A DNA stretch of 64,000 nucleotides from Xanthomonas indica (GTDB lineage Bacteria; Pseudomonadota; Gammaproteobacteria; Xanthomonadales; Xanthomonadaceae), in NCBI RefSeq assembly GCF_040529045.1, contig NZ_CP131914.1, positions 3,952,501 through 4,016,500 of the forward strand, written 5' to 3'. The position numbers and the translations under genes were made by a program. Position 1 is the first letter of the stretch. Each line of letters starts with the position of its first letter. Positions 6,976-42,973 of the stretch are shown here, one piece after another. The notes under the pieces were generated by a model, which worked only from the letters and a program-made list of their open reading frames with translations, was not told where the DNA came from and searched no databases.

Positions 6976-8027
6976 TGAAGCGTTTCGCAGGGCTGCTGTT
7001 CGCCCTCGCCCTGGCCTGCGCCCCGGCCATGGCCAAGAACCCGACTGCGCTGTTCTATCTGATGAACACGCAGAAATCGACCAATTCGTTCCTGGCCCAC
7101 CTCGACAAGATCGATGTGGTGGTGCCGACCTGGTACGGCGTGGACCAGAGCGGCCTGGTCAACGGCACCCCGAACCTGTACCTGTACGAGATCGCCAAGC
7201 AGCACAAGCTGCGGGTGATGCCGATCCTGTCGATGACCGCCGGCCGCGACGGCTTCCACAAGCTGCTGCACGACGAGGACGCCAAGCAGCGCATGATCGC
7301 CGCGCTGCTGATCCACGGCCGCAAGCACGGCTATTACGGCTTCCAGTTCGATTTCGAGAGCATCGCCTGGACCGACCGCGACGCCTACTCGCTGATGGTC
7401 AAGCAGACCGCCGAGGCGCTGCACAAGGCCGGTTTCAAGCTGTCGGTGGCGGTGGTGCCGAACGCACCGGGCTATGCCGAGGGCGGCGCATTCGCCAAGT
7501 GGATGTGGGAGTACTGGCGCGGCGCCTACGACCTCAAGGCGCTGAGCGCCTCGGCCGACCTGATCAGCCTGATGACCTACGACCAGCACACCCGCTGGAC
7601 CACGCCCGGCCCGGTGGACGGCATGGTGTGGATGAAGAAGCACCTGGACTACGCGCTGACCCAGGTGCCGAAGGACAAGCTGTCGCTGGGCATCGCCACC
7701 TATGGCTACCGCTGGTACACCGGCAATCCGGTCAAGCCCGACGGCACCGAAGCCTCCAACATCACCGCCGACTACATCGACGCCGACGAGTCGTTCCCGC
7801 TGGCGGTGGAGCAGAACGCCACCGTGCAATGGGATCCGGTGGAGCAGGAGTCGTGGTTCTATTTCTACCGCGACGACATGCGCGAATGGGTGTTCCGCCC
7901 GGACGCGCGCAGCTTCCGCGCCCGCTACGACCTGGTCAAACAGTACGGCCTGGAAGGCTTCAGTTGCTGGGTGCTGGGCGCCGAAGATCCCAAGGTCTGG
8001 GACGAACTGCCGACCGCGGCGCGCTGA
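6972..8027 (+). CDS. nixF: GH18 glycosidase, endo-beta-N-acetylglucosaminidase-like (NixF-like)
   Basis: This 351-residue exported protein has a clear signal peptide (MMKRFAGLLFALALACAPAMA). The GH18 barrel is shown by GYYGFQFDFESI, a variant of the DxxDxDxE motif, with Asp127 and Glu129 as the predicted catalytic pair. SLMTYDQHTRWTTPGP and the late GFSCWVLGAEDP also fit the fold. GH18 uses the substrate N-acetyl group in catalysis. In this setting it could cut the chitobiose core (GlcNAc-beta-1,4-GlcNAc), but activity cannot be read from sequence. The first Asp of the canonical motif is replaced by aromatic or Gln residues. The ATG at 6972 overlaps the GH29 stop. Confidence 0.82.
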   Translation: MMKRFAGLLFALALACAPAMAKNPTALFYLMNTQKSTNSFLAHLDKIDVVVPTWYGVDQSGLVNGTPNLYLYEIAKQHKLRVMPILSMTAGRDGFHKLLHDEDAKQRMIAALLIHGRKHGYYGFQFDFESIAWTDRDAYSLMVKQTAEALHKAGFKLSVAVVPNAPGYAEGGAFAKWMWEYWRGAYDLKALSASADLISLMTYDQHTRWTTPGPVDGMVWMKKHLDYALTQVPKDKLSLGIATYGYRWYTGNPVKPDGTEASNITADYIDADESFPLAVEQNATVQWDPVEQESWFYFYRDDMREWVFRPDARSFRARYDLVKQYGLEGFSCWVLGAEDPKVWDELPTAAR

Positions 8028-8146
8028 GCGGTCGCACGATCGCGATGCGACACAGGAGGCATGCGGCGCGCGCCGAACGCGCCGCGCTCACCTCAGGCTA
8101 CCCCGCAGCCTCTACGATACGCATCTCGATCGCTTGAGGTAGACCG

Positions 8147-10639
8147 ATGACTGCAGTGGGTGCACACCCCCGATTGCCGCACCGCCCGATGCTCGCCGCC
8201 GCGCGCATCGCGGCGGCCTCCCGCAACGCCTGGCTGGGGTTGTCCCTGCTCGCCTGTGGCAGCCTGCTCGGCGGCTGCGACCGCGCGCCGCCGCCGGCGC
8301 CTGCGCCCGCGGCCAAGCCCGCCGCGGCGCCGCCGCCGGCTCCCAAACACGATGACGACGACGACAAGACGCCGCTGCCGCTGATCCCGGCGCCGGCCAA
8401 GGCCGAGCGCGACGGCGGCACCCTGACCATCGGCACCGGCGCCGTGCTGTCGGTGCCCCTCGACGACCCCGGCGCGCAGCGCGTGGCCGAGCAACTGTCG
8501 CAATTGCTGAGCAAGACCCGCGGGCTGTCGCTGGAAGTGCGTGCGGAGACCATCCCCGCCGACGGCAGCATCCGCCTGCAGCTCAATCCCAATACCGAGG
8601 TGGCGCAGGCCGAGGGCTACACGCTGGACGTGGACCCGCGCACCATGCTGATCCAGGCGCGCGAGGAACGCGGCCTGTTCTACGGCGCGATCAGCGCCTG
8701 GCAGCTGATGACCCCCGATGCCGGCAAGGGCGAGGTGGACGTGCCGCAGGTGCACATCCGCGACTGGCCGCGCTTCGGCTGGCGTGGCGTGCTGCTCGAC
8801 GTGGCGCGGCACTTCCATGGCCCTGACACGGTCAAGCGCCTGCTCGACGCGATGGCCCAGCACAAGCTCAACGTGCTGCATCTGCACCTGACCGACGACC
8901 AGGGCTGGCGCATCGAGATCAAGCGCTATCCCAAGCTCACCGAGATCGGCGCCTGGCGCACCCCGCCCGGCGCCGGCACCCATGGCCTGCCCGATCGCTA
9001 CGGCGGCTTCTACACCCAAGACCAGATCCGCGACCTGGTGGCCTACGCCGCCGAGCGCCATATCACCATCGTGCCGGAGCTGGACATGCCCGGGCACGCG
9101 CAGGCCGCGGTGGCCGCGTACCCGGAACTGGTCGGGGTGACCCGGCAGCGGCCCAAGGTGTCGGTGGACTGGGGCGTCAATCCGTACCTGTTCAACACCA
9201 ACGACAAGAGCATGACCTTCATCCGCGGCGTGCTGGACGAAGTGCTGCAGCTGTTCCCCTCGCCGTACATCCACATCGGCGGCGACGAAGCGGTCAAGGA
9301 CCAGTGGGAACGCTCGCCGGCGGTGCGCGCGCAGATGCGCAAGCTCGGCATCAAGGATGCGCACGCGCTGCAGGGTTGGTTCAACCAGCAGCTGGCCGAC
9401 TACCTGACCCAGCACCAGCGGCGCCTGATCGGCTGGGACGAGATCCTGGAAGGCGGGCTGCCGGCCAGCGCGTCGGTGATGTCCTGGCGCGGTGTGGACG
9501 GCGCAGTCGCCGCCGCCAAGCAAGGCCACGACGTGGTGCTGGCGCCGGCCGGCTGGATGTACCTGGACAACCTGCAGAGCGCGCGCAACGACGAGCCCAA
9601 CGGCCGCCTGGCGACGCTGCCGCTGCAGAAGGTCTACGGCTTCGACCCGGTGCCGGCGGCGCTCAGCCCCGAAGAGAGCAAGCACGTGCTCGGCGTGCAG
9701 GCGGCGCTATGGAGCGAGTACATCCCCTCCGCCTGGCATATCGACCATGCGCTGTTCCCGCGGCTGAGCGCGGTGGCCGAGGCCGGCTGGTCGCCGATGG
9801 CCGCGCGCGACTGGAATAGCTTCCTGCAGCGCATGCCGGCGCAGCTGGACCGCTACCGCCTGCAGGGCATCGCCTACGGCGACGGCGCCTTCGCCCCGGA
9901 CATCGCGGTGCAGGGCGGCGACAACGCGGCGCTGGACAGCGGCCAGGCCACCGTGGTGCTGGGCAACCAGGCCAAGTTCGGCAGCTTCCGTTACACGACT
10001 GACGGCAGCGAGCCGAAGGCCGACTCGCCGCGCTACACCGCGCCGTTCGCGGTGACCCTGCCGGTCACCGTGCGTGCGGCCACCTTCGCCGACGACGGCC
10101 GCCTGCTGGCCGCGCCGCGCAGCCGCATCCTCGACCGCGCCAACCTGCTCAGCCGCGACACCCAGGGCCTGGCCTCGTGCGAAGGCGGCGAGCTGGGCCT
10201 GCGCGTGCCGCTGCTGCCGGACCTGGCTGACCAGGACACGCCGGTGTTCAACATCGACCTGTTCACCAGTTGCTGGCGCTACGCCGACGCGCGCCTGGAC
10301 GGCATCGACCGCATCCGCATCGACGCCGCCCGCCTGGCGCGCAACTACGGGCTGGCGCACGACCAGGCCAAGGTCAAGCGCTACCCGGCGCACAGCGCGC
10401 GCGGCGAGTTCGAGGTGCGGCTGGGCGACTGCAAGGGCAAGCTGCTGGCCCGGCTGCCAATGCCGGCCGGCAAGACCCTGGGCGACCAGTTCGCGCTGGA
10501 AGCGCGGCTGCCCAAGCAGACCGGCGTGCACGACCTGTGCCTGCGCTCCACCGCGCCCATCGCCGGGCCGTACTACGCCATCGGCGCCGTCCATCTGATC
10601 GACACCGCGGCGCAGGCGCCCCCCGCCGCCGCGCACTGA
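8147..10639 (+). CDS. nixG: GH20 beta-N-acetylhexosaminidase lipoprotein (NixG-like)
   Basis: This 830-residue protein should remove terminal beta-linked GlcNAc. The N-terminus carries a lipobox (LLGG before Cys44) followed by a Pro/Ala-rich linker, so it is probably a membrane-anchored lipoprotein. A GH20b domain spans about residues 70-200. The catalytic barrel starts at RFGWRGVLLDVARHF. HLHLTDDQGWRIEI and the catalytic pair Asp380-Glu381 in HIGGDEAV are intact. A chitobiase-type C-terminal sandwich (YTTDGSEPKADSPRYTAP) follows near residue 620. The start is supported by TTGAGG about 10 bases upstream. The GH2 gene follows after 16 bp. Confidence 0.9.
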   Translation: MTAVGAHPRLPHRPMLAAARIAAASRNAWLGLSLLACGSLLGGCDRAPPPAPAPAAKPAAAPPPAPKHDDDDDKTPLPLIPAPAKAERDGGTLTIGTGAVLSVPLDDPGAQRVAEQLSQLLSKTRGLSLEVRAETIPADGSIRLQLNPNTEVAQAEGYTLDVDPRTMLIQAREERGLFYGAISAWQLMTPDAGKGEVDVPQVHIRDWPRFGWRGVLLDVARHFHGPDTVKRLLDAMAQHKLNVLHLHLTDDQGWRIEIKRYPKLTEIGAWRTPPGAGTHGLPDRYGGFYTQDQIRDLVAYAAERHITIVPELDMPGHAQAAVAAYPELVGVTRQRPKVSVDWGVNPYLFNTNDKSMTFIRGVLDEVLQLFPSPYIHIGGDEAVKDQWERSPAVRAQMRKLGIKDAHALQGWFNQQLADYLTQHQRRLIGWDEILEGGLPASASVMSWRGVDGAVAAAKQGHDVVLAPAGWMYLDNLQSARNDEPNGRLATLPLQKVYGFDPVPAALSPEESKHVLGVQAALWSEYIPSAWHIDHALFPRLSAVAEAGWSPMAARDWNSFLQRMPAQLDRYRLQGIAYGDGAFAPDIAVQGGDNAALDSGQATVVLGNQAKFGSFRYTTDGSEPKADSPRYTAPFAVTLPVTVRAATFADDGRLLAAPRSRILDRANLLSRDTQGLASCEGGELGLRVPLLPDLADQDTPVFNIDLFTSCWRYADARLDGIDRIRIDAARLARNYGLAHDQAKVKRYPAHSARGEFEVRLGDCKGKLLARLPMPAGKTLGDQFALEARLPKQTGVHDLCLRSTAPIAGPYYAIGAVHLIDTAAQAPPAAAH

Positions 10640-30241: not shown

Positions 30242-30379
30242 GAGCCGGGATTAGGGATTGGGGAATCGGGATTGGGTGATTCCCCACCGCCGCCCTTCTG
30301 CGTGCGACCGGTTGCATTGCGGCGCGCGCTTCCTGTTGTCTGTTGCGTTGCACCCGCATCGCCTCTTCCGAGATCCCTC

Positions 30380-32230
30380 ATGCCTCGTACGACCCTCGCC
30401 GCCCTTGCCCTCGCCCTGGCGTTCGCCCTGCCCGCCACCCACGTGCGCGCGGCCGAAGGCGGCACCGCCTGGCCCGCCTTCGCCACCCAGGGCGATCACT
30501 TCATCCGCGACGGCAAGCCGTACCTGGTCATTTCCGGCGCCATCCACTTTCAGCGCATTCCCCGCGCCTACTGGAAAGACCGCCTGCAGAAAGCGCGCGC
30601 GATGGGCCTGAACACGGTGGAGACCTACGTGTTCTGGAACCTGGTGGAACCGCACCAGGGCCAGTTCGACTTCAGCGGCAACAACGACATCGCCGCCTTC
30701 GTCGACGAAGCCGCCGCACAAGGCCTCAACGTGATCCTGCGCCCCGGCCCCTACGTGTGCGCCGAGTGGGAAGCCGGCGGCTATCCGGCGTGGCTGTTCG
30801 CCGAACCCGGCATGCGCGTACGCAGCCAGGACCCGCGCTTCCTCGCCGCCAGCCAGGCCTACCTGGACGCACTGGCCGCCCAGGTCAAACCGCAACTCAA
30901 CGGCAACGGCGGCCCGATCGTCGCCGTGCAGGTGGAGAACGAATACGGCTCCTACGGCGACGACCATGCCTACATGCGCCGCAACCGCGACATGTTCGTC
31001 AAAGCCGGCTTCGACAAGGCGCTGCTGTTCACCGCCGACGGCCCTGACGTACTCGCCAACGGCACCCTGCCCGACACCCTGGCAGTGGTGAACTTCGCCC
31101 CCGGCGACGCCAAGAACGCCTTCGAGACCCTGGCCAAGTTCCGCCCCGGGCAACCGCAGATGGTCGGCGAATACTGGGCCGGCTGGTTCGACCAATGGGG
31201 CGAGAAGCACGCGGCCACCGATGCCACCAAGCAGGCCAGCGAATTCGAATGGATCCTGCGTCAGGGCCATTCCGCGAACCTCTACATGTTCGTCGGCGGC
31301 ACCAGTTTCGGCTTCATGAATGGCGCCAACTTCCAGAAGAACCCCAGCGACCACTACGCGCCGCAGACCACCAGCTACGACTACGACGCCGTGCTCGACG
31401 AAGCCGGCCGCCCCACCCCCAAGTTCACCCTGTTCCGCGACGCCATCCAGCGCGTCACCGGCACAACGCCGCCGGCCCTGCCCAAGCCGATCCCCTTCGC
31501 CGAACTGCCGGCCACGCCGCTGCGCGAATCCGCGTCGCTGTGGGACAACCTGCCCGCCCCGGCCGCCACCACCGACACCCCGCAGCCGATGGAGCGCTAC
31601 GGCCAGGCCTACGGCTACATCCTCTACCGCATCACCGTCACCGGCCCGCGCAAGGGCAGCCTGTACCTGGGCGAGGTACGCGACTACGCCCGCGTCTACG
31701 TCGACCGCACACTGGCCGGCAGCGCCGAGCGCCGCCTGCAGCAAGTCGCGGTGGACGTGGACATCCCCGCCGGCCCCCACACCCTCGACGTGCTGGTGGA
31801 GAACACCGGCCGCATCAACTATGGCGCCCACCTCCCCGACGGCCACGCCGGCTTGGTCGACCCCGTGCTGCTCGACGGCAAACCCCTCACCGGCTGGCAG
31901 ACCTTCCCCCTGCCGATGGACGATCCCAGCAAACTCACCGGCTGGACCACCGCCAAGATCGACGGCCCCGCCTTCCACCGCGGCACGGTGAAGATCGCCA
32001 CGCCTGCCGATACGTTCCTGGACATGCGCGCCTTCGGCAAAGGCTTCGCCTGGGCCAATGGCCATAACCTGGGCCGGCATTGGAACATCGGGCCGCAGCG
32101 GGCGTTGTATTTTCCGGCGCCTTGGCAGCGGAAGGGGGACAACAGTGTGATTGTGTTTGATTTGGATAGTGCGCCTGATGCGAGCGTGCGGGGAGTTACG
32201 GGGCAGGTTTGGAGTACGCCCAGTAATTGA
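30380..32230 (+). CDS. nixL: GH35 beta-galactosidase (NixL-like), second copy
   Basis: This 616-residue exported enzyme has a Sec signal peptide (MPRTTLAALALALAFALPATHVRA). GH35 motifs are VISGAIHFQRIPRAYW, VETYVFWNLVEP, LRPGPYVCAEWEAGGYPAWL, and MFVGGTSFGFMNGANF. Glu188 in QVENEYGSYGDD is the predicted acid/base and Glu264 in GEYWAGWFDQWGEKH the nucleophile. The C-terminal jelly-roll ends FGKGFAWANGHNLGRHWNIGP. It should remove beta-galactose, for example from Lewis-a type antennae of plant N-glycans. The ATG at 30380 is preferred because only it gives a signal peptide. Codon use near the 3' end turns AT-richer as the island begins. Confidence 0.9.
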   Translation: MPRTTLAALALALAFALPATHVRAAEGGTAWPAFATQGDHFIRDGKPYLVISGAIHFQRIPRAYWKDRLQKARAMGLNTVETYVFWNLVEPHQGQFDFSGNNDIAAFVDEAAAQGLNVILRPGPYVCAEWEAGGYPAWLFAEPGMRVRSQDPRFLAASQAYLDALAAQVKPQLNGNGGPIVAVQVENEYGSYGDDHAYMRRNRDMFVKAGFDKALLFTADGPDVLANGTLPDTLAVVNFAPGDAKNAFETLAKFRPGQPQMVGEYWAGWFDQWGEKHAATDATKQASEFEWILRQGHSANLYMFVGGTSFGFMNGANFQKNPSDHYAPQTTSYDYDAVLDEAGRPTPKFTLFRDAIQRVTGTTPPALPKPIPFAELPATPLRESASLWDNLPAPAATTDTPQPMERYGQAYGYILYRITVTGPRKGSLYLGEVRDYARVYVDRTLAGSAERRLQQVAVDVDIPAGPHTLDVLVENTGRINYGAHLPDGHAGLVDPVLLDGKPLTGWQTFPLPMDDPSKLTGWTTAKIDGPAFHRGTVKIATPADTFLDMRAFGKGFAWANGHNLGRHWNIGPQRALYFPAPWQRKGDNSVIVFDLDSAPDASVRGVTGQVWSTPSN

Positions 32231-32550
32231 CCTATCCACGGAGCGTGCCGTCCGGTAAATCCGGATGGCGCGGGAAGAAACAACTTGTCTACAAATTAAG
32301 GCCGCCGGCGGTTTCGCCGAGCGGCCTTCAACTTGTGACGACCGTCAACAAGTGATAGCGTCGGCCTTGTGCGGGGATGCACTTGGGAATGCCGTGGGTT
32401 AGACGCAAGGATTATGCGATAGCGCGACTGGCGAGAGATCGAATATGGGATGCGTACTGCCCAAAATGGGAGCAGTATCGGCGCGCTACAGACCTGTTTT
32501 TACACACCATTTTTTCGCCAAATAGTAGTTGAGCCTTAGGGGAGGAAATC
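32231..32550. other. Junction between the nix locus and the accessory island
   Basis: No gene is visible. A hairpin (AAGGCCGC...GCGGCCTT, 32298-32328) is flanked by two direct copies of CAACTTGT. It lacks a T-run, so it is not a classical terminator. GTTAGAC at 32398-32404 fits the GTTRRRY core of an integron recombination site and may mark the left end of the first cassette. Confidence 0.4.
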
Positions 32551-32832
32551 ATGGCGCGCTACACAATCAGAATCGAACTGCATGGTGCGACGTGGGATGA
32601 CTACGTGGAGATGTACAATTACCTAGCTGCACAAGGCATCACCGACATCATCACATCGGACGACGGCACTCGCTACAAGATGCCGCCTGCCGAATACAAC
32701 TACGAAGGCGATGCCACACGGGATCAAGTGCTAGCTTCTGCCAAAGCGTGCGCAGCAAAGGTTGTGCACTCGTATGCAGTTCTTGTCACTGAGGCATTAA
32801 CTCGGTCATGGCATGGCCTGGCTAAGGCCTAA
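32551..32832 (+). CDS. Integron cassette 1: small protein of unknown function
   Basis: This 93-residue soluble protein starts MARYTIRIELHGATWDDYVEMYN and contains a TSDDGTRYKMPPAEYNY segment. It has an excellent ribosome binding site (GGGGAGGAAATC). The stop TAA lies inside the first bases of the adjacent attC site, as is usual for cassette genes. The pattern reminds me of DUF2622-type short proteins, a family later linked to GhoS-like antitoxins, but the resemblance is weak and unverified. There is no signal peptide or membrane segment. Base composition is clearly lower in GC than in the nix genes. Confidence 0.7.
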   Translation: MARYTIRIELHGATWDDYVEMYNYLAAQGITDIITSDDGTRYKMPPAEYNYEGDATRDQVLASAKACAAKVVHSYAVLVTEALTRSWHGLAKA

Positions 32833-32888
32833 AAATTTATTCAAGCCGACGTCGCTTCGCGGTGCGGCTTAATTCAGGCGTCAGGGGC
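32827..32888 (+). repeat. attC site 1 (degenerate)
   Basis: The R'' side is GCCTAA and the inner arm pair AAGCCG...CGGCTT is present with a TTC loop. The R' side reads GTCAGGGGC instead of GTTAGGC, and the middle stem has mismatches. It is probably a weakened recombination site. Confidence 0.75.
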
Positions 32889-32892
32889 CGCG

Positions 32893-33413
32893 ATGAAGAG
32901 TATCGATAACCTTGTAGAAAGCTCTATTCAGAGACAGACTTTGCACGCAGCATTGCAACGTCCCTGGCCGGCGGCGTCGGTCTCGGCCTCTACTTGTGGC
33001 AACGCGACTGGGCCATTGCTGCCTTTTCCGCAATCATCGCCTTCCCGATTCTTCGACTGGCTTCTCGCGCCTTACACGATCTGCGCAAACGTGCCCAAGC
33101 CCATCGCTTTCGGGCACGGGATGCATCTGAGCTGTATGCCCGGCTCAGCGACGAGGAGCAGAAGGTCGTAGATGCATTCGCTAAGGTTGGCGGGGCCGTT
33201 TTGACATGGTCGCAGGTCAACGATTTGGAGCTAAGCGCTCCAGCCGTTGAATCACTCATGCAACGCGAAATGCTCACTACCTCAATGACAGCAGATCTCA
33301 TGCGTGAGACTTTCGTTCTGAATCACGCGCTATTCGAGGTTGGCATCGCAAGGATTCGTGGCGCGCGCCCTAACAATTCGTTCAAGCCGAACCCGCTTCG
33401 CGGGTCGGCTTAA
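32893..33413 (+). pseudogene. Integron cassette 2: small membrane protein gene with a frameshift
   Basis: The ATG at 32893 opens MKSIDNLVE, then the frame degrades. The frame one base over continues as LYSETDFARSIATSLAGGVGLGLYLWQ... and stays coding-like to 33413. Adding one A in the GAAAG run at about 32917-32921 would join them into one protein of about 173 residues. That protein would have one or two hydrophobic segments (GGVGLGLYLW and AIAAFSAIIAFPILRL) and a soluble tail. The frame ends inside attC2, as cassette genes often do. Function is unknown. A natural start at TTG 32994 with a shorter product cannot be ruled out. Confidence 0.55.
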
Positions 33414-33427
33414 CTCAGGTGTTAGGC
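33368..33427 (+). repeat. attC site 2
   Basis: A 60-bp site runs from CCCTAAC (R'') to GTTAGGC (R'). The inner stem AAGCCG/CGGCTT, one unpaired A, then ACCCGC/GCGGGT with loop TTC give the folded shape that integron integrases recognise. It is close in sequence to the site at 33843-33902. Confidence 0.9.
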
Positions 33428-33471
33428 AGCACACCAGCGTCATCGCTCTTTCAAAACCCGAAGGGGGACAT

Positions 33472-33837
33472 ATGCCGACATCATTAGTTGTCACTGCCGC
33501 GACAAAGATTCCGTGGAAGCAAATTCTTTTCTATCTGCCGGACGTGGCTAAAGCAGCTAAAGGTATTTGGAAAACTTTCGATTCGAAGCCGAAGCCCGTC
33601 CCTATTGATCCGCATGGATCTGCTTCAGCCCAGGTCAAAGCCATCGCTGAGCGCATTCAGACATTAGAAACCCACCAGAAGAATGAGTCGGAAGTAGTGA
33701 TGCGCATTGCTGAGCAACTTGAGGGAATTGCTGCGGGCTTAAAGGAGACCGCTGCAAGGCAAGCTGTGGCTCTAAAGATCGCTGTAGGATCTTCAGTTCT
33801 CGCGATCATCGCCCTAGTCGTCGTACTCGCCACCTGA
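33472..33837 (+). CDS. Integron cassette 3: tail-anchored coiled-coil protein
   Basis: This 121-residue protein starts at an ATG with AAGGGGG seven bases upstream. Residues about 50-95 (VKAIAERIQTLETHQKNESE and on) have a heptad-like pattern. The last 20 residues (VGSSVLAIIALVVVLAT) form a single membrane anchor at the very C-terminus. No enzyme motif is visible. The gene lies between attC2 and attC3, 44 bases after the R' core. Its job is unknown; anchored coiled-coils in cassettes can be accessory parts of toxin or stress proteins, but nothing here proves that. Confidence 0.75.
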   Translation: MPTSLVVTAATKIPWKQILFYLPDVAKAAKGIWKTFDSKPKPVPIDPHGSASAQVKAIAERIQTLETHQKNESEVVMRIAEQLEGIAAGLKETAARQAVALKIAVGSSVLAIIALVVVLAT

Positions 33838-33842
33838 GCGCG

Positions 33843-33902
33843 GCCTAACAATTCGTGCGAGCCGACGCCACTTCGTGGCGCGGCTTAACTCAGGTGTTAG
33901 TC
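33843..33902 (+). repeat. attC site 3
   Basis: A 60-bp site runs from GCCTAAC (R'') to GTTAGTC (R'). The inner arms GAGCCG/CGGCTT and CGCCAC/GTGGCG with loop TTC pair fully, with one extra A on one strand. It is the best folded of the three sites. Confidence 0.92.
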
Positions 33903-33919
33903 TGCTAGGAGACAATGAC

Positions 33920-34657
33920 GTGAAAGCCAGCGCTCTCCATAAGAAGGTCGGATCTCTTAGATCTATCCTGCAGCGTGGACTCAACAACACTTACATATGG
34001 ACGCAGTTTTCCATAAGCGCGTTGAACGCGGCCAAGAGCGACGACAAATTTTTATCTCAAAAACGCTTTAGGGTCCCTTCGAAAACTAGGGATAAGGAAA
34101 TTGAGCGCACTGAGGACGAGCTTCGGTCGATAGCCGAGGGGGCAGTAACTCAAGAAATATATTTCTCAGTATTTGTCTACGCTGTAGCGCAAGTTGAGGC
34201 TTTTGTCGGCGACCTCCTATATGAACTACTGAAGTTTGACAACAGGAGAATTCAGACAAAGGTTAAAGGAATCGATCACACCATGAAAGTAGATGTGTCT
34301 GAAGTCCTAGAGTGCAGTTCGCGCGACGAGCTAATCGACAAAATCATCAAGAAGGACTTAGTGTCACTTTTCTATGCTTCACCGGCTCTCCAGATGGAGT
34401 ACTTTCAAGCCGTGACAGGCGTGAAACTCGACGATGAAATACTTCAGAAGTGGATTGAAATTAAGGCTACGCGAGACATCGTTGTGCACAACTCTGGCGT
34501 CTCAAACTCAACTTACGTGCGCAAGGCAGGCGAGCAAGCGCGAGCGGGCGAAGGCGAGATTCTGCCGCTGGACGACGCATATTTCGCAGAAGCCTTATCT
34601 GTAATGAAGTCCTTCGTGGGGAGAGTTTCGAGCGCAATCCAGAAGGACCTAAAGTAG
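33920..34657 (+). CDS. Integron cassette 4: HEPN-like domain protein
   Basis: This 245-residue soluble protein is read from a GTG at 33920, with AGGAG at 33907-33911; the longer frame runs backward through attC3 and is rejected. YAVAQVEAFVGDLLYELLKF and the late RDIVVHNSG fit the all-helical HEPN fold of the RiboL-PSP/MAE_28990 type. Arg185-x4-His190 is the R-x4-6-H motif that forms the RNase centre in HEPN toxins. Such proteins are common in toxin-antitoxin and abortive-infection systems. No antitoxin gene lies beside it. The cassette's own 3' attC is missing: a different repeat begins 17 bp after the stop. Composition is about half GC. Confidence 0.72.
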   Translation: MKASALHKKVGSLRSILQRGLNNTYIWTQFSISALNAAKSDDKFLSQKRFRVPSKTRDKEIERTEDELRSIAEGAVTQEIYFSVFVYAVAQVEAFVGDLLYELLKFDNRRIQTKVKGIDHTMKVDVSEVLECSSRDELIDKIIKKDLVSLFYASPALQMEYFQAVTGVKLDDEILQKWIEIKATRDIVVHNSGVSNSTYVRKAGEQARAGEGEILPLDDAYFAEALSVMKSFVGRVSSAIQKDLK

Positions 34658-34673
34658 ATCGCAATCCAGAAGC

Positions 34674-34798
34674 GGGGCCAGGCTCACTTCCTAACCCGTT
34701 ACAAGGTCCCAGCCAAGACTCAGTGCTTCGCAGGCATCAGGCCCGCATGCCGCCCCGCGTAAAGCATCCAACTCAACAAATAAGTGAACCTGACCCTG
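34674..34798 (+). repeat. Island repeat R1 (~125 bp, MITE-like)
   Basis: The first of three related elements. It starts GGGGCCAGGCTCACTTCC and ends GTGAACCTGACCC, so its ends are near-inverted. The middle holds TGCTTCGCAGGCAT and AAAGCATCCAACTCA, shared with the copy at 37450. It follows the HEPN gene directly and precedes the ATPase gene. Confidence 0.8.
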
Positions 34799-34813
34799 AA
34801 ATTCAGAAGAACA

Positions 34814-37422
34814 ATGGCAAACGTCCTTCAAGAGATTCAAACATGGTCGGCAGACCGTCCGACATGGCAACGTGATGCGCTCCGCCGTCTCGTCGTGAAC
34901 GGCGAGCTGGGCGCAGAGGATATCGAGGCCCTGACGGCGATTTGCAAGGGCGGACACGGGTTGACGGAGAAGGTTGCGGCGCAACCGCTTGCCAAGGAAC
35001 ACGTGCCCAAGCGCGGGGGAGCGGAGCAGGCGGTTTCGCTGGACTCCATCTTCCACCACAAGGGTGTCAATGCCCTGGCCGAGAACCAGACCCTCAAGTT
35101 CGCCTCCGGCCTCACCATCGTCTACGGCGATAATGGTGCGGGAAAGACCGGATATACTCGCATCCTCAAACAAGCCTGCCGCGCGCGCCGGCAGGAGACG
35201 ATTCTCAGCAACGTCGTGATAACTGGCGTGGCTCCGCCCAAGCCGACTGTCGCCATCAAATACAAGGTCGGAACCGATGCCGCCGCCCGCGAGTGGACGG
35301 GCGGCGACGCGGATGAGTTCGTCTCCCGCGTCAGCATCTTCGACACGCACTGCGCCGCCGTTTATTTGAATGAGCGAACGGACGTAGCGTTTCTACCCTT
35401 CGGCCTCGACCTTTTTGACAAGCTCGTCCGCGCGCATGCAAAGCCGTTCGCGCAAGACTGGAAACCGAACAACGCGCGTTGGACACCAATGCCCTGACGA
35501 GCGTCATCGCGCAGATTCCGCAGGGAACGGCGGCGGCGAAGCTGGTGAACGGCATCACCCTGTTTACCAAGCCGGAGGACGTGCAGGCCATTGCACGCCT
35601 CAAGCCTGAGGAACAGGAGCGGCTTACCTTTCTGGAAAAGGCCCTCCAAGACCTGCAAGCCAACGACCCGCAGAAGCTTATGGCTCAACTGACCCTGCGT
35701 GCAAGCCGCGTCCGCGCGCTTGCCGACCATCTGCGAGGGTTGGAAACGGCTCTGGCGGACGAGGAAGTGATCGCCGTGTTCGACACGCGGAAGGAAGGAC
35801 GCCGCAAAAGCGAAGAAGCGAAGCGGTTGCGCGAAGCGACCTTTCCGCAAGGTTTGCTTACCGGAACCGGCGAAGAACAGTGGAAGGCCATGTGGGAGGC
35901 GGCGCGGCTGTTCTCGGAACAACAGGCGTATCAGGGCCAAGGCTTTCCCGTCACGGACGGTGGCGCGAGATGCGTCCTTTGCCAGCAAGACCTCGGCCAT
36001 ACCGCTACCCACCGGCTCAAGCACTTCGAGGAGTTCGTGGTCTCGACGACGGAGAAGGAGCTTCGGCTGATGCGCGACGAATTCGCGCGCAGGCGCAACG
36101 CCTTTGCCAATCTCAAGACGTCCACGGATGCGACAGAAGAAACCCTAAAGGAACTGCGCCTGGAGCATGATACCAAGGCCGAAGCCATCAGCGCCGCCAT
36201 ATCCCACAGCGAAAGGCGCCGCGTCGCTATCATTGCGGCGCTCGCCGAGAACAAGGACCTCGGCGAAGACTTTCAAGCACTCGTAGCATCTTCGACCCAA
36301 GCCAAATCTATCGGCGATGAAATCGATGCCCGCCTCAAGTCGCTGCGCGAGGCCGGAGCCGCCGACGCCAAGAAAAAGATGAGCGACGAGGCGCAGGAAT
36401 TGCGTGCGCGGCTCGTGCTCGGCAAGCATGAGAAGGCGATTCTTGATGAAATTGAGAACAAGAAAAAAATCGCCGCCTACGCACAGTGCCTCGATGAGAC
36501 CAAGCCGAACGCCATCACGCAGAAAAGCTCCGCCGTTACGAAGGCGGTCGTATCAGAAAGCCTCAAGAAGAGATTCAAGGACGAGTTGGAGGCATTGGAA
36601 TTTAACCACGTCGAAGTCGAGCTAAAAGAGCAAGGCGGCGCGGAAGGCGTCTTCTATCACAAGCTCGTCCTCACCAGAAACCCGACCGTCAACGTTCCCA
36701 AGGTAGTGAGCGAGGGGGAGCAGCGATGCATTTCCATAGCGGCTTTCTTCGCCGAACTTAGCACAGCCGACGACCGCTCCGGCATGGTGTTCGACGACCC
36801 CGTGTCGTCGCTCGACTTCCAGTGGCGGAGCGCCGTCGCGCGGCGGCTGGTGGAAGAATCAAAACGAAGACAGGTCATCGTCTTTACGCACGATGTCGTC
36901 TTTCTGCTGGCACTCAAGCAATTTGCCGAGCAGATGGACGTTCAACCTCTTGACCAACACATCCGCAGACAGGTCAACGGCGCAGGCGTGTGCCGCGAGG
37001 AACTGCCTTGGCTCGCGATGCGCGTGAGGGACAAGATTGGGTTCCTCAAGAACGCGTGGCAAGCCGTAAATAAGAAGCACCGCAACGGGGAGCAGGACGC
37101 CTACGAGCGGGAGGCCAAGGAACTCTACGGTCTCCTGCGCGAGGCGTGGGAGCGCGCGGTAGAGGAGGTTCTGTTGGGCGGCATCGTCGAACGATTCAGA
37201 CCCAGCGTCGAAACCCAACGGCTCGCTCCTCTCTCCGACATCACCGACGACGACTGCAAGACCGTCAAGGAAGGGATGACCAAGTCCTCGGCATGGCTCA
37301 CGGGACACGACCACGCGGCTGCGGCGCGGTCACCCGTGCCTGCACCGGGCGAGTTGAAAAAGGACATCGAGACATTGGAGACGTGGGTGACGGGCATCAA
37401 CGTCCGCCGGCGCAACAAGTAG
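34814..37422 (+). pseudogene. Zinc-hook ABC-type ATPase (RloC/AAA_13-like), split by a frameshift
   Basis: Two overlapping frames, 34814-35497 and 35479-37422, together encode one protein of about 870 residues. The first has WQRDALRRL near the start and a Walker A (GDNGAGKT, residues 105-112). The second has long coiled coils around CVLCQ (bases 35971-35985), a CxxC zinc-hook-like turn. It then shows EGEQRCISIA (ABC signature), MVFDDPVSSLD (Walker B, 36784-36816), and VFTHDVVFL (H-loop). The frames join if CGCGCGCA at about 35430-35437 is read as CGCGCA, so a GC dinucleotide has been gained. SMC-like ATPases of this layout occur in phage defence (RloC, AAA_13). The C-terminal region ends TGHDHAAAA; a nuclease triad is not certain. 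It is probably inactive unless the shift is bypassed. Confidence 0.7.
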
Positions 37423-37449
37423 CCCTGCATTAATGCATCGGGCAGGAAC

Positions 37450-37580
37450 GGGGTCAGGTTGACTTCCTAAGTGAAACACGCGGTCCAGCCAAGACCCGTT
37501 GCTTCGCAGGCATAGGCCCGCACGCCACCCACGCAAAGGATCCAACTCATTCGATAAGTGAACCTAGCCCCGTTAGTCCC
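37450..37580 (+). repeat. Island repeat R2 (~130 bp, MITE-like)
   Basis: It starts GGGGTCAGGTTGACTTCC and ends AAGTGAACCTAGCCCCGTTAG; the outer 16 bases are near-perfect inverted ends. The internal TGCTTCGCAGGCAT and GATCCAACTCA match R1. The remaining gap to the methyltransferase gene (37581-37799) shows no gene I can support. Confidence 0.82.
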
Positions 37581-37799
37581 GTCATCGGCACCGCCCGAAT
37601 GGCGTGGCGGGCACCAAGGCAGAATCAACAACAGCCGAGCCGACCGCTTGCTAAGCACTTGTTCCTCAAAGACTTTTTTGAAAGGCATAGAGCCCACCCT
37701 TCCCTACCTGACCATCCAGTGGCCTAATAAGGCAAATGGCATACGCCAGCGTTCTCTAGGGATGAGACAAGGAAGCTGAACAATGCCGCCCCCCGCCTT

Positions 37800-38750
37800 A
37801 TGAAGAAACAAATGGCTACCGCTACTCGTTCCAGAGGAGTTGCCCCAAGCAAGGCAACCGAGCCACTGCGCATGCAGTTCCCTAGCAACTCTCCGACCAA
37901 GCACACAGAACTCTACTTGGCCGATGCGATCCAATGGATGTCCGAGCGCGAGGAGTGCTCCATCCATGCCATTGTCACCGACCCTCCTTACGGCTTGGTC
38001 GAGTTCGACGAGAAACATGTGGACAAGATGCGAGGGGGCTCGGGTGGGGTGTGGCGCATTCCGCCCTCGTTTGACGGAGCCAAGAGGGCACCGCTCCCAC
38101 GCTTTACCACTCTCACAGCGAAGGACCGCGAGAGGCTCACTACCTTCTTCAAAGCGTTTGCCTATCAGGCCGGGCGCATTCTTGTGCCTGGCGGCCACAT
38201 TGTCATGGCATCCAATCCACTTGTATCGACAACTACATTTGCATCCATTGAGACGGCAGGCTTTGAAAAGCGTGGAGAACTGATTCGCGTCGTTAAGACT
38301 CTACGCGGAGGAGACAGGCCGAAGGGTTCTGAAGAAGAATATCCTAACGTATCCGTCATGCCTCGATCATGCTGGGAACCTTGGGGGATTTTCCGCAAGC
38401 CCATTGACCAAAACACCGTCGCGGCTAATCTGCGCAAATGGGGTACTGGCGGTTTCCGCAGGGTTTCCGACGATGAGCCTTTCCGAGATCTCATAGAGGT
38501 GGCACCTGCTCGAGACCCTGAGCGAGCCTTAGCGCCCCACCCATCCATCAAGCCGCAACGCCTGATGCGCTACATCGTTCGTGGCGTGCTGCCTGTGGGC
38601 GAAGGCATCATTTATGACCCATTTTCGGGCAGCGGCTCGACCCTTGCTGCTGCTAGCCATCTTGGGCTGAAAGCAATCGGGACGGAGCGCGACCCCATTT
38701 ATTACACAATGGCATCGCAAGCCATTCCTAGGCTGGCAAAAATCGCGTGA
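37800..38750 (+). CDS. DNA methyltransferase, beta-type (N6-adenine or N4-cytosine)
   Basis: This 316-residue enzyme has motif IV DPPYG at residues 61-65 ahead of motif I DPFSGSGSTLAAA at residues 273-285. That order defines the beta class of amino-methyltransferases. GRILVPGGHIVMAS and HPSIKPQRLMRYIVRGV fit motifs between them. It should methylate adenine N6 or cytosine N4 at a specific site and protect against the nuclease encoded next. The start is uncertain: in-frame ATG codons exist at 37800, 37812 and 37872, and none has a strong ribosome binding site. The stop TGA overlaps the GTG start of the nuclease gene. Confidence 0.85.
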   Translation: MKKQMATATRSRGVAPSKATEPLRMQFPSNSPTKHTELYLADAIQWMSEREECSIHAIVTDPPYGLVEFDEKHVDKMRGGSGGVWRIPPSFDGAKRAPLPRFTTLTAKDRERLTTFFKAFAYQAGRILVPGGHIVMASNPLVSTTTFASIETAGFEKRGELIRVVKTLRGGDRPKGSEEEYPNVSVMPRSCWEPWGIFRKPIDQNTVAANLRKWGTGGFRRVSDDEPFRDLIEVAPARDPERALAPHPSIKPQRLMRYIVRGVLPVGEGIIYDPFSGSGSTLAAASHLGLKAIGTERDPIYYTMASQAIPRLAKIA

Positions 38751-39865
38751 ATAGCTCGCAGTCAATTACACCGAAAAAAATTCTTGAAGATGTCAAGGCA
38801 AACTTCTTTGGCGGACAGAGGCGAAAGTTTCTTCCAGGCCTACTAATTGCTCTTATTCGCTTTCTTCGCAACCTGAAAGCAACTGGCGGCAAATACGCTT
38901 CGCTGGAAGAATTCCATAAAGATTTTCCGCTGGTGACCGTCACAAGCAAGGGCGGGGGCGTTAACACTTTTACCGTGCTAGTGAATGGCAAGAGTTCGGC
39001 AATCCGGAAAGAGTATGACAAGATTGCCGACTTCTTCCGAAACGAAAAGCATCGCTACGATTTCCCCAGTTCGGCTCCCCATGCCACCCAAGCGTGGAGA
39101 GACTACATTTCCTGGATCGAGGCAATTCTCTCTTTTGATGACCCATCTCTAGACGCTTTGGAAAAGGATGTCATTGATTATGTCCTAGACTCTCTTCCCT
39201 CCCAAGCGATTGATCCATCGACTGTTAAACGCGAGCCGCCACTCTTCTTGCTCTACCTTCAAAACTTTGATTTGACCAGCAAGGCGGGAGAACCGACAGG
39301 GGCCGCTTATCAGGGAACTGTTTTTGGCTATATACGTGCCGACGCGCCTCACCTCCAAGTAGAGGTTGGTAAAGTTCGGACGGGCTCGAAGCGTGAGAAG
39401 AGAGTCGGAGACATCGACGCAAGGGATGGCGAGAAGCTAGTTCTCTCAGCTGAGGTCAAACAATATGTGGTAGGCGACAAGGACCTCGGTGAATTCGGTG
39501 AATTTTCCCAGCTCATTGCCCAGCACCAAGCGCTAGGGTTGGTGGTTGCACTTGGCTTTAAAGACGACGCTTCCAAGAAAATTGCCGAGATGGGACTCGA
39601 GCCGCTTTCTCGCGATGACCTTATTGAGCGCGTTAGAATCTGGGATCCACTCAAACAGAGGATCGCCATTAGCGCAATTATGTACTACGCCAACTTCAGA
39701 GAGCAAAATTCCGTCCTTTACGAGCGCATACAAAATTTTATTGCAGAAGCTGAAGTCGCCAATACGGCTAAATTGGCAATAGAATCTATTTCCCCCAAGG
39801 AGATCGAAGTCGATGATCAAGAATATCCAGATTCGGGGACCGGTGAAGGGGCCAAGCTCACTTAA
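38747..39865 (+). CDS. Restriction endonuclease candidate, PD-(D/E)XK type
   Basis: This 372-residue protein starts at a GTG that overlaps the methyltransferase stop (GTGA). The middle holds VGDIDARDGEKLVLSAEVKQ. Asp222/Asp224 followed by Glu236-Val-Lys238 fits the D-(x)n-E-x-K active site of PD-(D/E)XK nucleases. The N-terminal half (FLPGLLIALIRFLRNLKATGG) looks helical and may bind DNA. No ATPase or helicase motifs are present, so a Type II enzyme is most likely. Pairing with the methyltransferase through an overlap supports a restriction-modification system. I do not recognise a named isoschizomer. Composition is lower in GC than the flanks. Confidence 0.7.
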   Translation: MNSSQSITPKKILEDVKANFFGGQRRKFLPGLLIALIRFLRNLKATGGKYASLEEFHKDFPLVTVTSKGGGVNTFTVLVNGKSSAIRKEYDKIADFFRNEKHRYDFPSSAPHATQAWRDYISWIEAILSFDDPSLDALEKDVIDYVLDSLPSQAIDPSTVKREPPLFLLYLQNFDLTSKAGEPTGAAYQGTVFGYIRADAPHLQVEVGKVRTGSKREKRVGDIDARDGEKLVLSAEVKQYVVGDKDLGEFGEFSQLIAQHQALGLVVALGFKDDASKKIAEMGLEPLSRDDLIERVRIWDPLKQRIAISAIMYYANFREQNSVLYERIQNFIAEAEVANTAKLAIESISPKEIEVDDQEYPDSGTGEGAKLT

Positions 39866-39953
39866 GCTTGTTACAGCCAAAAGCAGTTGACACCCCCAAA
39901 AACCAGTAGCACCATCCCCTCTAAGGAGCGTAGAAACTCCTCTCATAGCGGCC

Positions 39954-40000
39954 CCCACCTCCGTCAAACCGGTGGGTTTTTTGTGCCTGTTCGCAGGCAC
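39954..40000 (+). terminator. Terminator followed by a second stem-loop in the symE leader
   Basis: CCCACC...GGTGGG followed by six Ts (39954-39982) is a Rho-independent terminator for the restriction genes. Next to it GTGCCTG-TTCG-CAGGCAC (39983-40000) is a perfect 7-bp stem with a UUCG tetraloop. More small hairpins follow up to 40120, so the gap 39866-40143 looks like a structured RNA leader. Confidence 0.7.
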
Positions 40001-40143
40001 ACTCCGATGCGCTGTCTGCGTCGGGAGGGCGGCGAATACAACACCCTTCGGGGAAATAAGCCCGCCGTCTATGAGGGGTTTCTAACCTCCCGACATCCCG
40101 TCGCCCTTCGGCGCGGGTTTCTGTCTGCCAAGGAGGCTGTGCC

Positions 40144-40503
40144 ATGCGTCAACCGTCACCCCGCCCCGCCGCTCCCTGCAAGCGCATGTCGCACAAGCAT
40201 CGCCACTGCCCGCAGTGGACGATCGTCGAGTCGTCGCTCATCCCCATGCTGACACCCGAACAGGTCGCCGCCGCCAACGCCGCCGATCTTGCCCGCGCCT
40301 CGCGACCGCCCCGCCGCCCACGCCCGCCACAGCAGTGCACCGTCGGCTGCGGCCACTCCGCCAACGGCAAGCGCACGCCCGCGCTGCGCCTGGGTGGCCG
40401 CTGGATGGAAGAACTGGGCTTCACCATCGGCAGTACGCTGCGCGTGCAGGTGCGCGACGGCGAACTGGTGGTGAGCGTGGCCAGAGAAACGGGGTCAGAT
40501 TGA
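40144..40503 (+). CDS. symE: SymE-family toxin-like protein
   Basis: This 119-residue protein has a variable, Pro/Arg-rich N-terminal half and ends with PALRLGGRWMEELGFTIGS, then RVQVRDGELVVSV. That segment is the SymE domain (AbrB-like swapped-hairpin fold), found in the E. coli SOS-induced type I toxin SymE. AAGGAGGCTGTGCC precedes the ATG. The reading frame runs into island repeat R3, and the last residues (ETGSD) and stop come from it, so the original C-terminus may have differed. Regulation by an antisense RNA, as for SymR, is possible but not visible. It follows the restriction genes, and symE genes often neighbour restriction loci. Confidence 0.75.
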   Translation: MRQPSPRPAAPCKRMSHKHRHCPQWTIVESSLIPMLTPEQVAAANAADLARASRPPRRPRPPQQCTVGCGHSANGKRTPALRLGGRWMEELGFTIGSTLRVQVRDGELVVSVARETGSD

Positions 40504-40624
40504 CTTCCCGCGTAGAGCTGACCGGTTACAAGATCCAAGCGAAGACAAGGTACTTAGTAAGTATTAGGCCCACATACAGCCCCGCAAAACATCCAACTCA
40601 ACGGAACCTGACCCCGTTAGTCCA
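40491..40624 (+). repeat. Island repeat R3 (~134 bp, MITE-like)
   Basis: It starts GGGGTCAGATTGACTTCC and ends GGAACCTGACCCCGTTAG. It shares ACATCCAACTCA and the GTTAGTCC right flank with R2, but the middle has diverged more. It overlaps the 3' end of symE. A leader region without a gene follows to 40751. Confidence 0.8.
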
Positions 40625-41430: not shown

Positions 41431-42438
41431 TCAGATCGACAAGCACAGCTTCCCAAAATGCTTCCCCGCCGCCTGATGCGCGAACGCATCGGCGATGTCT
41501 TCCAGTGAAAAGGTCTGATCGACCACCGGCTTGATGCCGGTCGCGTCGAGGGCGCGGACCATGTCGCGCTGGTGGCTGCGGCTGCCGACGATCAGGCCCT
41601 GCAGGGTCTGGTGGCGTTGCATCAGCGCCACCGTCGGCACCTGGCCGGCAATGCCGGTCAGCACGCCGATCAGGGCGATGTGGCCGCCGATGCGGCAGGC
41701 CTGGATGGATTGCCCCAGGGTGTCGGGGCCGCCCACTTCGATCACCACGTCGACGCCGCGGCCGTTGGTGTAGTCGAGCACCTTGGCCGCCCAGTCGGTG
41801 TCGCGCCGGTAATTGATGGTGAAATCGGCGCCCAGCGCCTGCGCACGCGCCAGCTTCTCGTCGGAGGACGAGGTGGCGATCACCGTGGCGCCCATGTGCT
41901 TGGCGAACTGCAGGGCGAAGATCGACACGCCGCCGGTGCCGAGCACCAGCACGGTGTCGCCGGCCTTCAGGTGCGCGTCCACCACCAGTGCGCGCCAGGC
42001 GGTGAGCCCCGCGGTGGTCAGCGTCGCCGCTTCGGCGTGGCTGTAGCCGCGCGGTGCGTGCGTGAACCAGTGCGCGGGACGAACGACGTATTCGCGTGCA
42101 TAGCCGTCGACGCCATCGCCGGGCACGGTGGCGAAATCGGCGATGGTCGGCCCGCCATCCAGCCAGGTCGGGAAGAACGTCGAGACGACCGCGTCGCCCA
42201 CGGCAAACTCGTCCACGCCTTCGCCCACCGCCTCCACCACGCCGGCACCGTCGGACATCGGGATGCGGCCGTCGGCGCTGGGCATGCGGCCGGTCACCAC
42301 GCCCAGGTCGTGGAAGTTGAGCGAGCTGGCATGCACGCGCACGCGGAGTTCGCCGGCGCTCGGCTGGCCGGGATCGGGCAGATCGACGAGGCGGAGGTTC
42401 TCGAGGCCAGCGGGCTGGCGCAAGGTAATGGCTTTCAT
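41431..42438 (-). CDS. Medium-chain dehydrogenase, quinone oxidoreductase type
   Basis: This 335-residue cytoplasmic enzyme is of the MDR superfamily. Motifs are SSLNFHDLGVVTGRMP, PMSDGAGVVEAVGEGVDEFAVGD, and TAGLTAWRALV. VLVLGTGGVSIFALQFAKHMGA is the NAD(P) Rossmann loop, and EVGGPDTLGQSIQACRIGGHIALIGVL follows. The structural zinc cysteine cluster is absent, so it is closer to NADPH:quinone reductases than to classical zinc alcohol dehydrogenases. The start at 42438 is preceded by GAAGGA. It is divergent from an HxlR-type regulator, which probably controls it in response to an electrophile or quinone. Confidence 0.85.
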   Translation of the reverse strand: MKAITLRQPAGLENLRLVDLPDPGQPSAGELRVRVHASSLNFHDLGVVTGRMPSADGRIPMSDGAGVVEAVGEGVDEFAVGDAVVSTFFPTWLDGGPTIADFATVPGDGVDGYAREYVVRPAHWFTHAPRGYSHAEAATLTTAGLTAWRALVVDAHLKAGDTVLVLGTGGVSIFALQFAKHMGATVIATSSSDEKLARAQALGADFTINYRRDTDWAAKVLDYTNGRGVDVVIEVGGPDTLGQSIQACRIGGHIALIGVLTGIAGQVPTVALMQRHQTLQGLIVGSRSHQRDMVRALDATGIKPVVDQTFSLEDIADAFAHQAAGKHFGKLCLSI

Positions 42439-42542
42439 GGGCACGACATCCTTCGAAAAAGTGGCGAGGGGCGGCGCCGCATCGGTTGCAGCGAAGCCGC
42501 GTTGCAGGCATTGTCGGGATGCACTTCCTGCATCGCAAGAAC

Positions 42543-42580
42543 GTACAATTTTCGCAGGTACTATCAATTCTGTAGGTATA
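42543..42580. promoter_or_regulatory. Divergent promoter/operator region of dehydrogenase and HxlR gene
   Basis: In an AT-rich patch between the two genes, GTAC repeats at 42543 and 42558 and two GTAGGTA/GCAGGTA-like words at 42554 and 42572 recur about 15-18 bp apart. HxlR-type regulators often bind GTAC-containing repeats. No clear -35/-10 pair can be assigned. Confidence 0.4.
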
Positions 42581-42586
42581 AAGACC

Positions 42587-42973
42587 ATGCGTCTGAAACG
42601 TCTGGATGGCAAGAGCGGCTGCGCGGTCGAAGTCACGCTTTCGGTGATCGGCGGGGTGTGGAAGCCGGTGATCCTGTTCCACCTGCTCTCCGGCAAGAAG
42701 CGCTTCATGGAACTGACGCGCCTGATTCCCAATGCCACGCAGCGCATGCTGACCCTGCAGTTGCGCGAGCTCGAGGAGGACGGCGTCATCGTGCGGCACG
42801 TCTATCCGCAGGTGCCGCCCAAGGTCGAATATGCGCTGACACCGCTCGGCGCATCCCTCGCGCCGGTGCTGATCAGCCTGCGCGAATGGGGCGAGTCGTA
42901 CCGCAGCAGCGAGATGTCGCGCGCGCCGGCCGACGCGCCGGAATGCGTGCGCGGCGTAGCGACGGCTACTTGA
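42587..42973 (+). CDS. HxlR-family transcriptional regulator
   Basis: This 128-residue winged-helix protein has the HxlR pattern: Cys12 near the N-terminus, then VIGGVWKPVILFHLLSGKKRF, LTRLIPNATQRMLTLQLRELEEDGVI, and VEYALTPLGASL. Members with a conserved N-terminal Cys sense quinones, aldehydes or oxidants (YodB, HypR). The divergent dehydrogenase is the natural target. The start at ATG 42587 is chosen because the longer frame overlaps the dehydrogenase gene and lacks homologous sequence. Confidence 0.87.
   Translation: MRLKRLDGKSGCAVEVTLSVIGGVWKPVILFHLLSGKKRFMELTRLIPNATQRMLTLQLRELEEDGVIVRHVYPQVPPKVEYALTPLGASLAPVLISLREWGESYRSSEMSRAPADAPECVRGVATAT

Follow-up and report, generated by a model that had tools for sequence, protein, structure and literature searches.

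Repeats between defence genes in a Xanthomonas hotspot as probable remnants of a tyrosine-transposase element

Three similar elements, which we call R1, R2 and R3, stand among defence genes in a 64,000-nucleotide stretch of Xanthomonas indica DNA (the window). Are they borders at which such genes are gained, lost or swapped, or do they lie there for a plainer reason? A sequence-only reading had likened the pattern to a cassette array and described three co-directional elements of about 130 bp with common ends and inner blocks. The elements are real, 122 to 125 bp long, on a common strand and with shared inner blocks; their inverted ends are imperfect. R1 has GGGGCCAGGCTCACTT on the left and AAGTGAACCTGACCCT on the right, R3 has GGGGTCAGATTGACTT and AACGGAACCTGACCCC, and the right end of R2 is AAGTGAACCTAGCCCC. 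Ends are degenerate in R1 and R3, and both terminal repeats are kept without a complete transposase gene. Pairwise identity is 82.6% for R1 and R2, 75.7% for R1 and R3, and 72.8% for R2 and R3. With R2 as the query against the whole 4.8-Mb genome, the hits include R1 (E = 2.7e-18) and R3 (E = 0.014), while R3 aligns with R1 at 77% over 87 bp (E = 4e-11); these values argue that the family is not a product of chance.

Table 1. Features of the window discussed in the text
Feature	Position	Strand	Remark
GH35 beta-galactosidase	30272..32230	+	left hotspot flank
attC-like integron site 1	32822..32889	+	core 32830-32884
attC-like integron site 2	33363..33430	+	core 33371-33425
attC-like integron site 3	33838..33905	+	core 33846-33900
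260-aa ORF	33875..34657	+	no Pfam hit
R1, long-form MITE-like remnant	34674..34797	+	
PDC-S06/AAA_13-type ATPase	34784..37422	+	two overlapping frames
R2, long-form MITE-like remnant	37450..37571	+	query of genome searches
Type II DNA methyltransferase	37800..38750	+	
Type II restriction enzyme	38747..39865	+	
Fourth, degenerate R end, right-end type	39848..39863	-	faces the other way; just 5′ of sRNA-Xcc1
sRNA-Xcc1 (RF02221)	40020..40102	+	
symE (SymE_toxin family)	40144..40503	+	last codons run into R3
R3, long-form MITE-like remnant	40491..40615	+	inside symE 3′ end; orthologous copy in G006
Zinc-type alcohol dehydrogenase	41431..42789	-	right hotspot flank

The first description of the genes between the repeats needs some corrections. 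The single ATPase gene placed between R1 and R2 matches one PADLOC family; it consists of two overlapping frames, 34784-35497 and 35479-37422. Since these match successive parts of PDC-S06, they look like one frameshifted gene, and the break near 35479-35497 may be a genuine frameshift, a sequencing error or a programmed shift. Between R2 and R3 the methyltransferase, nuclease and symE genes are present, but the module is split by a fourth R end, detected with three mismatches allowed, and R3 lies in the last symE codons. The restriction gene has its stop codon inside this fourth end, which sets that gene apart from the sRNA-Xcc1/symE unit. The 260-aa ORF before R1, which looks HEPN-like by a motif, shares 43.6% over 101 aa with a 284-aa ORF of G006; each of the two ORFs stands just before an R.

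Transposase origin of the repeats

The inner block of R corresponds to the last 75 bp or so of a Y1 (IS200-like/RAYT) transposase gene. The key is an intact element in G014 that sits in the same hotspot and reads, from left to right, an R-type left end, a 234-aa Y1 transposase whose gene ends, on the 3′ side, in the R inner block, and an R-type right end. The protein matches Y1_Tnp at E = 6.7e-14. Its score against the NCBIfam RAYT model REP_Tyr_transpos, 62.5 bits, is under the cut-off of 80, which we counted against a transposon reading; a search of PDB sequences gave no match for the transposase. Intact transposase genes, each with at least one clear R-type end, were found in G010 and G007 as well. 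Of the 20 Xanthomonas genomes searched, 18 have Y1 transposase genes (PF01797); G019 has 31 Y1_Tnp matches, 21 of them near-identical and each with one in-frame TAG.

Beyond the genus, the 90-bp matches to R2 are transposase genes or pieces of them at eight of eight loci. Exact matches to AAC plus the left end were found in 20 genome-contig stretches, mostly from the order containing Xanthomonas, and a transposase or pieces of one are also present in seven of these. The link of R to the intact element rests on matching ends and a matching inner block, and it bears out the earlier suggestion of a MITE or an IS200/RAYT-linked sequence.

Which element is it? Passages of two papers (PMC3733652, PMC6006769) describe TIRYT elements, or TIRtrons, as RAYT-like Y1 transposases with terminal inverted repeats and the motif GGGGWSAS. 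The string GGGGTCAG in R2 and R3 fits this motif, and GGGGCCAG in R1 is one base off. R shares with TIRYTs the arrangement of a Y1 transposase gene between GGGGWSAS inverted repeats, with ends moderately repeated elsewhere in genomes; it differs in having lost most of the transposase gene and in that its detected long form is found in one hotspot only. REPs, and REPINs with their RAYT, likewise tie a short palindrome to a Y1 transposase. The published REP head is GT(A/G)G in the part of PMC2817692 that deals with it, whereas GAAGC, GGAAC and GAAAC precede R1, R2 and R3, with no GT(A/G)G head, and R copies are few. Judged by its sequence, R is best described as MITE-like and as derived from a terminal-inverted-repeat tyrosine-transposase (TIRYT) element.

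R occurs in two forms, a short one of 35 bp that holds both ends with 3 bp between them, and a long one of 122 to 137 bp. The long copies of G017 and G008_1 contain the short form plus a transposase tail, which suggests a composite origin. As single-stranded DNA the short form folds strongly (z -7.0; none of 200 shuffles as good) and R3 moderately (z -2.75). For R1 and R2, shuffled sequences fold as well as the whole DNA strand does (z -0.01 and -1.05), and this was counted against a transposon reading.

Distribution and the integron sites

We then looked at where R occurs. At E 0.01, with all candidates scored, the R2 query has a match in 14 of 20 Xanthomonas genomes; this threshold misses R3-like copies, and R3 and its G006 copy were found by pattern scans. 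Ten long copies were detected: three in G000 (the genome of the window), two each in G008 and G006, and one each in G011, G017 and G010. All ten lie in the hotspot beside the GH35 gene and point in one direction, although diverged long copies may escape detection and the stretches around R half-sites outside the hotspot were inspected for part of these. In a count of full R elements, with R1 taken by its inner block and half ends left aside, 20 of 20 in 10 hotspots are co-directional, a total that includes the intact G014 element. The opposite orientation is seen for R ends 5′ of sRNA-Xcc1. When two candidates were scored in each of 395 genomes of the family, only Xanthomonas had matches covering most of R2. 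No plasmid copies were found at E 1e-5.

The R2 query found no further full copy in its own genome beyond the window, unlike an actively spreading family, and no empty site of R was seen among the loci examined; both were counted against a transposon reading. A dispersed MITE in this genome was considered and rejected, since a search with R2 recovers, besides the three copies of the window, a single partial match. That match is at 660 kb (E = 0.014), beside a transposase relic and an attC-like site. Flanks of the long copies hardly match one another, except in one orthologous pair. Free transposition does not explain why the long copies detected are all in one hotspot.

The hotspot itself is of a known kind. 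Just 5′ of R1 are three attC-like sites with small ORFs, which the sequence-only reading did not mention, and a search of the genome with the integron-integrase model TIGR02249 gave nothing over the cut-off. By these predicted sites, 32822-33905 is an integrase-less cassette cluster directly before R1. GH35 and alcohol dehydrogenase genes both flank the R-bearing stretch in G006, G008, G009, G010, G011, G013 and G016, and the stretches retrieved for G014 and G017 cover the GH35 side. By pattern, attC sites are present in four of these nine other hotspot loci (G006, G014, G016 and G017) besides the window; the loci had been chosen because they hold R. Passages of PMC12444791 report integrase-less attC clusters away from ilvD in about half of Xanthomonas genomes, with the sRNA-Xcc1/symE cassette as the most widespread; a word search of its main text gave no occurrence of "palindrom". 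That the locus is an integrase-less attC hotspot helps to explain its cassette look.

Of the 52 R half-sites in 11 single-contig genomes, 23 have an attC no more than 5 kb away, with 0.43 expected; for clusters of half-sites the figure is 9 of 29, with 0.24 expected. The count leaves out the other 9 of the 20 genomes, which had several contigs, no attC or R match, or an incomplete attC list.

Could R itself be an aberrant attC site? It stands in line with attC sites and in one direction, and many copies are bounded by AAC/GTT triplets. The attC box consensus is RYYYAAC ... GTTRRRY. The boxes of R1-R3 do not fit it: the right flanks are GAAATTC in R1 and GTTAGTC in R2 and R3, and the left flanks have no RYYY. 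The inner block, moreover, is the 3′ end of a transposase gene, and no R lies within 5 kb of the largest attC clusters in five genomes (G003, G004, G007, G014 and G016). We regard the attC reading as scarcely credible. R resembles the attC sites and CALINs of Xanthomonas, as passages of PMC12444791 present them, in the kind of locus, in being palindromic and in lying in line after genes; it differs in sequence, in its lack of attC boxes and in its transposase-derived core.

Targeting of attC by R was rejected as well. Within 90 bp, an attC half was found for 4 of 107 R sites, versus 32 of 3000 random positions; of the four, one is a complete neighbouring attC 54 bp away and one has five mismatches. 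IS1111-attC insertion sequences are mobile elements found in integron arrays. R has this setting in common with them but shows no attC targeting (4/107). At two loci (L042 at 6254, with GH35 turned to +, and L043 at 8022), R ends lie beside a half attC, as though they had entered it or the DNA next to it.

Borders of modules or remnants between genes

In the cassette reading R is a recombination border, with modules gained, lost or swapped between copies. Some observations fit. G000 and G008 each have an R, one ATPase gene and a second R, and the two ATPases are different (24% identity over 373 aa). R2-subtype copies of four genomes have no flank homology within 600 bp, and the ten detected long copies share one hotspot and one direction. 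Against this, three loci of other genera carry related modules with no R end in the flanking DNA covered, 1.5 kb at most: a relative of the ATPase in G175 (65%) and relatives of the restriction-modification genes in G384 (78%) and G102 (69%). R1-R3 differ from one another by 17 to 27%, with identical runs of at most 14 bp.

Further evidence comes from G000 and G006, the sole pair marked as the same species. Their DNA after 39873 is shared (96% over 1559 bp), whereas the R copies are the only parts to align from 32530 to 39873 (hits of at least 80 bp). R2 and its G006 counterpart differ by 16%, and R3 and its counterpart by 3%. The pair shows replacement of a whole block, not a single module and a single repeat gained or lost together, and we counted this difference for an explanation by hotspot turnover.

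We also asked how close R lies to gene ends. In 6 of 20 cases the start of R is no more than 50 bp from a stop codon of the same direction, which is not significant against random intergenic positions (p = 0.135); the ORF rule missed the symE stop, and by hand the count is 8 of 20, two of these being one orthologous pair. This bears on a further proposal, that R is retained as a 3′-end or terminator element of the preceding gene. Several R copies contain a stop codon of their own direction or begin no more than 40 bp from one, and REPs are mostly downstream of genes according to passages of PMC3733652. Yet the excess near gene ends is not significant and the whole-strand folds of R1 and R2 are ordinary, so we hold a terminator role to be very unlikely.

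The claim that recombination between R copies moves or pools defence genes found no support, given related modules with no R in the flanks covered, no empty site among the loci examined, block replacement and a closeness to gene ends that is not significant; as an account of the locus we consider it improbable. The confinement of the long copies detected to one hotspot leaves room for a weaker version, in which a transposon-derived repeat resident there was copied or reshuffled locally with incoming defence modules, and R forms the shared borders of swapped single-gene modules, the R-ATPase-R layouts of G000 and G008 with their different ATPases being examples. This, too, we think unlikely. 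A literature search over titles and the starts of abstracts gave no description of this repeat in Xanthomonas arrays.

Our preferred reading is that R1-R3 are very probably old, non-coding, TIRYT-derived, MITE-like remnants in a hotspot of known kind, where the cassette look is most simply that of intergenic remnants amid gene turnover. A composite copy, the 35-bp short form plus a transposase tail, would have entered an integrase-less attC hotspot. R copies may then have spread inside it by single-strand transposition or, alternatively, have been duplicated locally when strains exchanged blocks of hotspot DNA. We propose that gene turnover at the locus, rather than any movement by R, has placed defence modules between R copies. 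The cassette-like pattern would then have a plain origin, and palindromes aligned between defence genes need not be recombination borders. The remnant reading would also tie a TIRYT-type element to the attC hotspots of Xanthomonas, with the oddity that a single hotspot holds all the long copies detected.

Some smaller observations concern single units. We considered, and rejected, a mobile symE unit bordered by R ends, since such ends lie 3′ of symE in G000 and G006 only; in the other six of eight units symE reads on to its own stop with no R end 3′. An R end lies 5′ of sRNA-Xcc1 in five of the eight symE units with a complete left part. Five loci (L099, L100, L104, L114 and L044) match the sRNA-Xcc1 part of the unit over about 200 bp (83-86%), a few kb from R ends and with the symE part absent from the same hit. 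In G008 (L034, GH35 on +), positions 7311-10624 hold a DUF6988 gene, an R, an AAA_13 ATPase gene and a second R, a layout like that of the window with a different ATPase; the stop codon of this ATPase gene lies inside the second R.
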